This document shows, piece after piece, positions 28,209 to 29,078 of a stretch of DNA of 60,231 bases. The notes beneath the pieces are model-generated. The model saw only the letters and a list, made by a program, of their open reading frames with translations, ran no database searches and had not been told where the DNA came from. Origin of the DNA: Bdellovibrio sp. (GTDB lineage: Bacteria; Bdellovibrionota; Bdellovibrionia; Bdellovibrionales; Bdellovibrionaceae); contig JABWCO010000002.1 of the NCBI GenBank assembly GCA_013360185.1, positions 1 to 60,231 on the forward strand, written 5' to 3'. The first letter of the stretch is position 1. Each line of letters opens with the position of its first letter. A program made the position numbers and the translations under genes.

Positions 28209-29078
28209 ATGCAGCAATCGACATTGGATAGCTCTTTCGTGAACCGATTGAGACAAATTCTTTCTAGCCGCTATGGGAAGGGCTTACAGATTCGCCAACT
28301 GATGGATCTGACGGATGTTAAATCAGAGGACGCCTTCACCAAGGGGCGCGATCTGCACATACCATTATGTGTGAATGGGGCTATCTTAGGAACGGCCGTT
28401 ATCCCTTCAGCTGATGACTTGAATAAAGAAAAGCAGCAAGGGGTCACTCAGTTAGTAAGAATGGTCTTAGAGCCCGCTATGTACAAATGGCATCTTGAAC
28501 AAAAAGAAGCCAATTTAATGGAACTAAGCAAAGCCAACTTAACATTGGATAATGTTTTACTTTTCGGCGAAGAGCCTATGCCCACGATAGATGAGATCTT
28601 GTCTGCGGATGATACGGAACTCAACGAAGGTCCAGCTGAAGATCTGATTTCAAATCTAATTCACTTGGAAGGGCGCTCCGAACTGACAAACAAAAAGGTC
28701 GCTTTGCAGCTGCACGAAATCACAGGTCGCTGGGCCTTTGTTCCTTTTAACGATATCAAGGGACAACTGCACTCTTCTCAAGACATTGCAAAAATGGGTG
28801 CCATGACAATTTATATCGAAAACGTGGCAGCACTTAATTCCGCAGAACAAGAACTTCTGATGGATTATATTGGCGAAGATCGTTTTTCAGATGAGCCCTT
28901 GATCATCACGAGCTCCTTCCAAAGTCTTGAAGAGCTCGCAGCAACCTTGCATTCAGATCTTCTGGACGAGGTCTCTGTAAATTGTTTTGAAGTTGATCGC
29001 GCTCCGCTAACGACTCAAGGTTTGCGTGAGGTTTTAGAGCTCTTTTTTATGAAAGAGTCGCCTCTCGACGCCCAATAG
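28209..29078 (+). CDS. Hypothetical protein with degenerate sigma-54-activator-like AAA+ region
   Basis: [24 protein letters not shown] and [50 protein letters not shown] follow the order of the Walker B / sensor I / arginine-finger region of activators, but Walker A and GAFTGA are absent. Confidence 0.6.
   Translation: [289 protein letters not shown]

Follow-up and report, generated by a model that had tools for sequence, protein, structure and literature searches.

The window, that is, the whole stretch of 60,231 nucleotides of Bdellovibrio DNA that we analysed, carries on its forward strand a sigma-54 activator gene (25919..27475), an open reading frame of 289 codons (28209..29078) and two genes for putative amino-sugar enzymes. 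The activator is intact, as had been claimed, since Pfam found its full domain set, and synteny and alignment agreed: a PocR-like sensor, an AAA+ domain with Walker A, Walker B and GSFTGA, the lid and a Fis-type HTH. The reading frame at 28209-29078 is a genuine gene, and the coordinates, the quoted peptides and the 43-bp gap to the gene at 29122 given in the original prediction were all exact. The gene at 29122..30141 (+) encodes an AmgK-like anomeric amino-sugar kinase of the APH fold (Pfam APH), and the next one, at 30138..31133 (+), a MurU-like sugar-1-phosphate nucleotidylyltransferase with a hexapeptide tail (Pfam NTP_transferase). AmgK was the best-scoring NCBIfam model for the kinase, with 144.7 bits against a cut-off of 550, so that the curated threshold was not reached. 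The nucleotidylyltransferase matched MurU, among other NCBIfam models, with 80.7 bits against a cut-off of 250. Both names are similarity calls with putative substrates, and the "amgK" placed 43 bp behind our gene in the original prediction was right in its distance and is a matter of similarity in its name. The order activator, dead AAA+ gene, amgK-like gene, murU-like gene was maintained across most of the taxonomic order.

In the strain HD100, the next gene after the murU-like one encodes both NamZ exo-muramidase domains, which supports a role of the operon in MurNAc recycling. This NamZ-family gene (L154:11797-12990, minus strand; HD100 136796-137989) lengthens the putative recycling operon in HD100 and is missing from the window copy of the locus; G002 and G015 have ORFs of its length at the corresponding position, known from length and position alone. 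The HD100 copy of the 28209 gene lies at 140064-140933 of that genome, and by this position its tag would be about Bd0155, reckoned from Bd0152, which is named a muramidase in PMC11656739. A kinase followed by a nucleotidylyltransferase is also the scheme of the AmgK-MurU recycling route of Pseudomonas and Caulobacter, but the Bdellovibrio enzymes score under the curated AmgK and MurU cut-offs. In the papers found, this route is nowhere described as being under sigma-54 control with a dead activator.

Other genes at the locus were also recorded. Behind the murU-like gene, the minus strand of the window (31135-33847) carries homologs of HD100 genes that fit Bd0149 and Bd0150; these tags were assigned from gene order and from residue 256, which is Gly in the putative Bd0149 homolog, consistent with the published G256V. 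Bd0149 and Bd0150 have been linked to host-independent biofilm forms and predation (PMC11323537, PMC6561027). Between the activator and the 28209 gene, the minus strand encodes a protein of 125 aa with a signal-peptide-like start (27553-27930), which among the relatives compared is seen in this genome only. Other genomes have other insertions at this position, e.g., at the loci L033 and L042.

The 28209 protein is a catalytically dead relative of NtrC-type AAA+ proteins. Its AAA+ alpha/beta core (aa 148-262, 28650..28994) had Sigma54_activ_2 (PF14532) as its best family match, on aa 162-262, with E = 3e-5 and 24.6 bits, just under the family cut-off of 25, while the Walker A part of that model was unmatched. 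The same model was matched by 19 of the 28 orthologs scanned (best 1.4e-11). The profile-profile comparison of the 28209 family with the 25919 family by hhalign gave a probability of 95.5% and E = 1.5e-8, and in a comparison of the 28209-family profile with the PDB, NtrC-family chains came first. The AlphaFold model, built from an input of five sequences, had a modest overall pLDDT of 64.8, with values mostly between 72 and 90 over aa 151-220, and the order of strands and helices in its C-terminal core was that of the AAA+ alpha/beta domain. The best Foldseek matches were NtrC1, NtrX, the sigma-54 activator domain 3n70 and PspF. The fold had been named beforehand as the decisive check, a non-AAA+ fold speaking against the proposal, and AlphaFold and Foldseek gave NtrC-type AAA+ matches. 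Taken together, the Pfam hits, the profiles, the structure matches and the motif losses described below bear out a non-catalytic relative of sigma-54 activators.

Alignment to the 25919 activator confirmed the reported absence of Walker A, the GAFTGA loop and the Fis-type HTH. Walker A has changed from GENGTGKE to GRSELTNK, and the segment of the GAFTGA-type loop is deleted. The list of losses had been slightly understated, as Walker B (FLDE to IENV), the R-fingers (FREDLYYRL to LHSDLLDEV) and the lid with sensor II are gone as well, the protein terminating ahead of the lid. Among the 28 orthologs scanned, the lid and an HTH of the Pfam family HTH_8 were found in one only (L069). With Walker A and B, the GAFTGA loop, the R-fingers, the lid and the HTH lost, the protein as predicted cannot act as an NtrC-type ATPase, as a remodeller of sigma-54 or as a DNA binder via the usual domain. 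A second short activator-like protein (281 aa) is encoded elsewhere in the same genome (L071:7248-8093, contig C48); it has Walker A, the R-finger region, the lid and the HTH, and is without the N-terminal domain and the GAFTGA loop. Proteins of this type occur in several genomes of the genus and in the genus g6.

With every catalytic motif gone and an evolution faster than that of the activator, the 28209 gene might be taken for a functionless, decaying relic of a duplicated activator. We found it in all 24 Bdellovibrio genomes searched, with 53-80% identity to the window copy, and 124 of the 141 genomes of the order matched the 28209-family profile at E ≤ 1e-5, although some ten of the weakest matches are probably other activators. 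Inspection by hand added diverged copies in G125, G128, G129, G130 and G102. The dN/dS of the gene was 0.02-0.09 in close and moderately distant pairs, compared to 0.01-0.04 for the activator and amgK in the same pair comparison. These values indicate that the gene is under purifying selection and not decaying; "degenerate", as it had been called, is therefore apt for the catalytic sites and not for the gene. The dN/dS and the conservation rule out a decaying pseudogene, and with zero stops, retention in nearly the whole order and a conserved promoter of its own, a relic is barely credible. A phage origin was also rejected, none of 50,697 phage records giving a match.

The proposed origin by duplication is probably correct. 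The ortholog L069 from G040, with 414 aa, has lost Walker A, Walker B and GAFTGA and kept the lid and the Fis HTH, and by these features it is an intermediate between the activator and the dead protein. Because its branch in a maximum-likelihood tree was very long (4-5 changes per site) and its placement uninformative, the scores of its lid and HTH were ranked instead. This part of L069 scored 47-55 bits against all nine 25919-family proteins and at most 41.6 bits against 35 other activators from three genomes, all of them below every 25919-family protein, and its top match was the 25919 ortholog of its own genome. Since, among the activators tested, the 25919 family is the one closest to this lid and HTH, tandem duplication of the 25919 activator gene is the simplest, and probably the right, explanation of the 28209 gene.

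Upstream of the 28209 gene, an alignment of 18 loci revealed a conserved sigma-54-type -24/-12 site, TGGCACTAACCTTGAA (28152..28167, +). It reads TGGCAC-N5-TTGAA here, with an imperfect -12 element (TTGAA for TTGCW), and mostly YGGCAY-N5-TTGTA or TTGCC in relatives. The strict pattern was found in 24 of 36 regions upstream of the 28209 gene, compared to about 2 of 370 regions upstream of other ORFs at the same loci. Outside the genus, 24 of 32 genera had a -24/-12-like site within 200 bp upstream, where about 0.008 would be expected per region (about 0.3 in total). A genome-wide search for a regulon with the -24/-12 pattern gave no excess over a reversed-pattern control (8 vs 6). RpoN is present in this genome, and its match was absent in only 4 of 103 good-quality genomes, which assembly gaps could explain; G122 and G123 (92 and 94% complete) are among these four and yet carry the 28209 gene. 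An intrinsic terminator with a 13-bp stem and a T-run (27498..27529, +) ends the activator gene, so the 28209 gene needs a promoter of its own. Read-through from the activator gene is disfavoured by this strong terminator and by the 0.7-kb gap with its opposite-strand ORF. It is well supported that 28209 is the first gene of a predicted sigma-54-dependent operon with the amgK- and murU-like genes, as are the origin of its product and the catalytic loss.

Further upstream lies a 32-bp element with an imperfect dyad and CTAA/TTAG ends, CTAAATATTTTACTGGTGTGATCGAAACTTAG (28026..28057, +). In 15 of the 16 loci of the genus it precedes the -24 GG by 124-126 bp, in the remaining one by 113 bp, and one other genus (L047) has it at 125 bp. 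Where it lies and how well it is conserved suggest an enhancer bound by an activator, and from the adjacency of the genes we infer that the 25919 protein may bind it. A real sigma-54 promoter driven by a different activator, with the 28209 protein acting elsewhere, would fit the presence of about 12 activators in the genome, and a search allowing up to 3 mismatches found the element once only, in the window as in the entire genome. The 25919 activator is, moreover, much better conserved than the operon, and G119 has kept it although the operon is missing there. Nevertheless, the adjacency of 25919 and the operon has been kept across the order, with the element between them, and we regard a different activator as quite improbable. 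The same conservation and persistence suggest that the 25919 activator probably has other, important targets. Its identity is unusually high, 92-97% in most of the genus and about 66-86% in other genera and families. The sigma-54 site, the enhancer-like element, the order-wide conservation and the retention of the N-terminal domain in the most distant lineages were not part of the original prediction.

The N-terminal domain (aa 1-104, 28209..28520, +) consists in the model of a helix (residues 8-22), beta strands (43-65) and a long helix (73-107). It showed a weak collinear similarity to the N-terminus of 25919, with E = 0.003 in a single comparison and a probability of 11%. The domain is possibly a shrunken version of the PocR/GAF-like sensor domain of the activator, and the similarity is only suggestive of a duplication at full length, sensor included. 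In the families f2 and f11, this domain alone is retained at the same position, as a protein of about 135-150 aa. These short genes lie between the activator and amgK (L074:4899-5330, L075:4331-4762, L077:7857-8288 and L078:1236-1646), mostly with a sigma-54-like site upstream. The AAA+ part was either lost in these families or never attached. As the N-terminal domain stands by itself there, with the activator and usually the sigma-54 site kept, poisoning of a ring by an AAA+ subunit cannot be the universal function of the family, and these copies speak most strongly for a function that goes beyond the AAA+ part.

The co-occurrence of the genes bears on the partner of the protein. The 28209 gene was absent from G119 and G091 (an assembly 84% complete), where the activator is present and amgK was not found. 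Four genomes of the genus g53 have amgK, and neither a 25919 ortholog nor a recognisable 28209 copy was detected in them; the activator, the 28209 gene and amgK are all absent from G060, G071, G074 and G126. The pattern is as expected of a go-between between the activator and amgK, from few independent cases and some incomplete assemblies. A different role is that of an adaptor or scaffold, in which the dead core and the N-terminal domain would hold or regulate the AmgK- and MurU-like enzymes, with no part in transcription. The gene adjoins amgK in nearly every lineage and was not detected where amgK was not found (G060, G071, G074, G119, G126). In G063, G103, G131 and G142 it remains beside amgK although the activator is elsewhere, and in G103, G131 and G142 no sigma-54 site was recognised either. 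However, the G042 copy adjoins the activator with no amgK alongside, the G127 copy is inverted relative to amgK, genus g53 keeps amgK without a recognisable 28209 gene or activator, and a protein descended from the activator is more likely to be its partner within one complex. We consider the adaptor role rather unlikely, but the protein is more likely a brake or an adaptor than junk.

AAA+ ancestry, catalytic loss, selection, linkage and a sigma-54-type promoter can all be read from the DNA and its homologs. For the function we favour a brake on the activator. A tandem copy of the 25919 gene would have lost ATP binding, the sigma-54 loop, the R-fingers, the lid and the DNA-binding domain and kept the alpha/beta core and the N-terminal domain. 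Most simply, the 25919 activator would turn on the 28209-amgK-murU operon via the element about 126 bp upstream of the promoter, and the 28209 product would bind, insert into or cap the AAA+ ring of 25919 as a dead subunit and damp it, a negative feedback. The N-terminal domain may sense an amino-sugar intermediate or the enzymes, and the outcome would be a recycling of MurNAc and GlcNAc matched to the supply from digested prey or from the cell's own wall. We put it at about an even chance that the dead paralog, as first product of the operon, feeds back on the activator ring as an anti-activator and ties the activator to MurNAc recycling. For the wider claim, that throughout the order the first product of the operon the activator switches on is its own dead copy, a built-in brake reading sugar recycling through the N-terminal domain, we would go somewhat less than halfway. 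Of the brake model, we infer three parts: that 25919 is the bound activator, that the two proteins are in contact, and that the effect is inhibitory. Counting against a brake, the entry of a protein without R-fingers and nucleotide site into a ring may be weak, and HTH-truncated HrpS showed no self-association in one study (PMC4145663). Moreover, the retention of the gene beside amgK where the activator has moved fits an enzyme-linked role.

Hetero-oligomers of paralogous activators and inhibitors acting in trans are already known. HrpR and HrpS of Pseudomonas syringae are paralogous activators from a gene duplication and act as a hetero-oligomer (PMC4145663). In Rhodobacter sphaeroides, the partial activator FleT is encoded in a sigma-54 operon activated by FleQ, and the two proteins form a hetero-oligomer (PMC7277832; PMC7175178). 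Like 28209, whose promoter is recognised by sequence, fleT is a partial activator gene in a sigma-54 operon, and both products are without a DNA-binding domain (PMC7175178); 28209 adjoins the gene of its presumed partner. FleT is described as a sigma-54 activator with neither a regulatory nor a DNA-binding domain, whereas the 28209 protein retains an N-terminal domain and is without catalytic motifs, GAFTGA loop and lid. The FleT-FleQ hetero-oligomer has been reported; the pairing of 28209 and 25919 is a proposal.

By analogy with HrpR/HrpS, FleQ/FleT and VnfA1/VnfA3, a hetero-oligomer of 25919 and the dead subunit might instead be needed for activation or redirect it. The known hetero-oligomers mostly promote activation (PMC4145663, PMC7277832, PMC9542535), and the FleT gene likewise lies in the operon activated by its partner. 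In the papers found, partner subunits of sigma-54 activators are AAA+ activators themselves, HrpR and HrpS both being described with AAA+ function, and in-trans inhibitors are separate proteins. The 28209 copy, in contrast, is catalytically dead and cannot contribute a power stroke, because Walker A, Walker B, GAFTGA and the R-fingers are lost; we consider a co-activator unlikely.

The proposed brake has its likeness in PspA, which inhibits the PspF activator ring in trans (PMC3791423), and in HrpV, the in-trans negative regulator of HrpS (PMC4145663). The likeness lies in the proposed effect, since the 25919 ring would also be damped in trans. PspA and HrpV are, to our knowledge, not AAA+ proteins, whereas the 28209 protein descends from the very activator it would damp. 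In the open-access papers searched, we found no account of an order-wide conserved, catalytically dead paralog of an activator at the head of a sigma-54 operon, and their main texts yielded no relevant mention of the corresponding HD100 genes. If true, the brake would give predatory Bdellovibrio a testable regulator that links cell-wall sugar recycling to transcription, at a locus that is also present in the genetically tractable predator HD100. A dead paralog kept by selection across the order would then be a new control mode for activator motors, comparable to the inactive subunits in other AAA+ machines.
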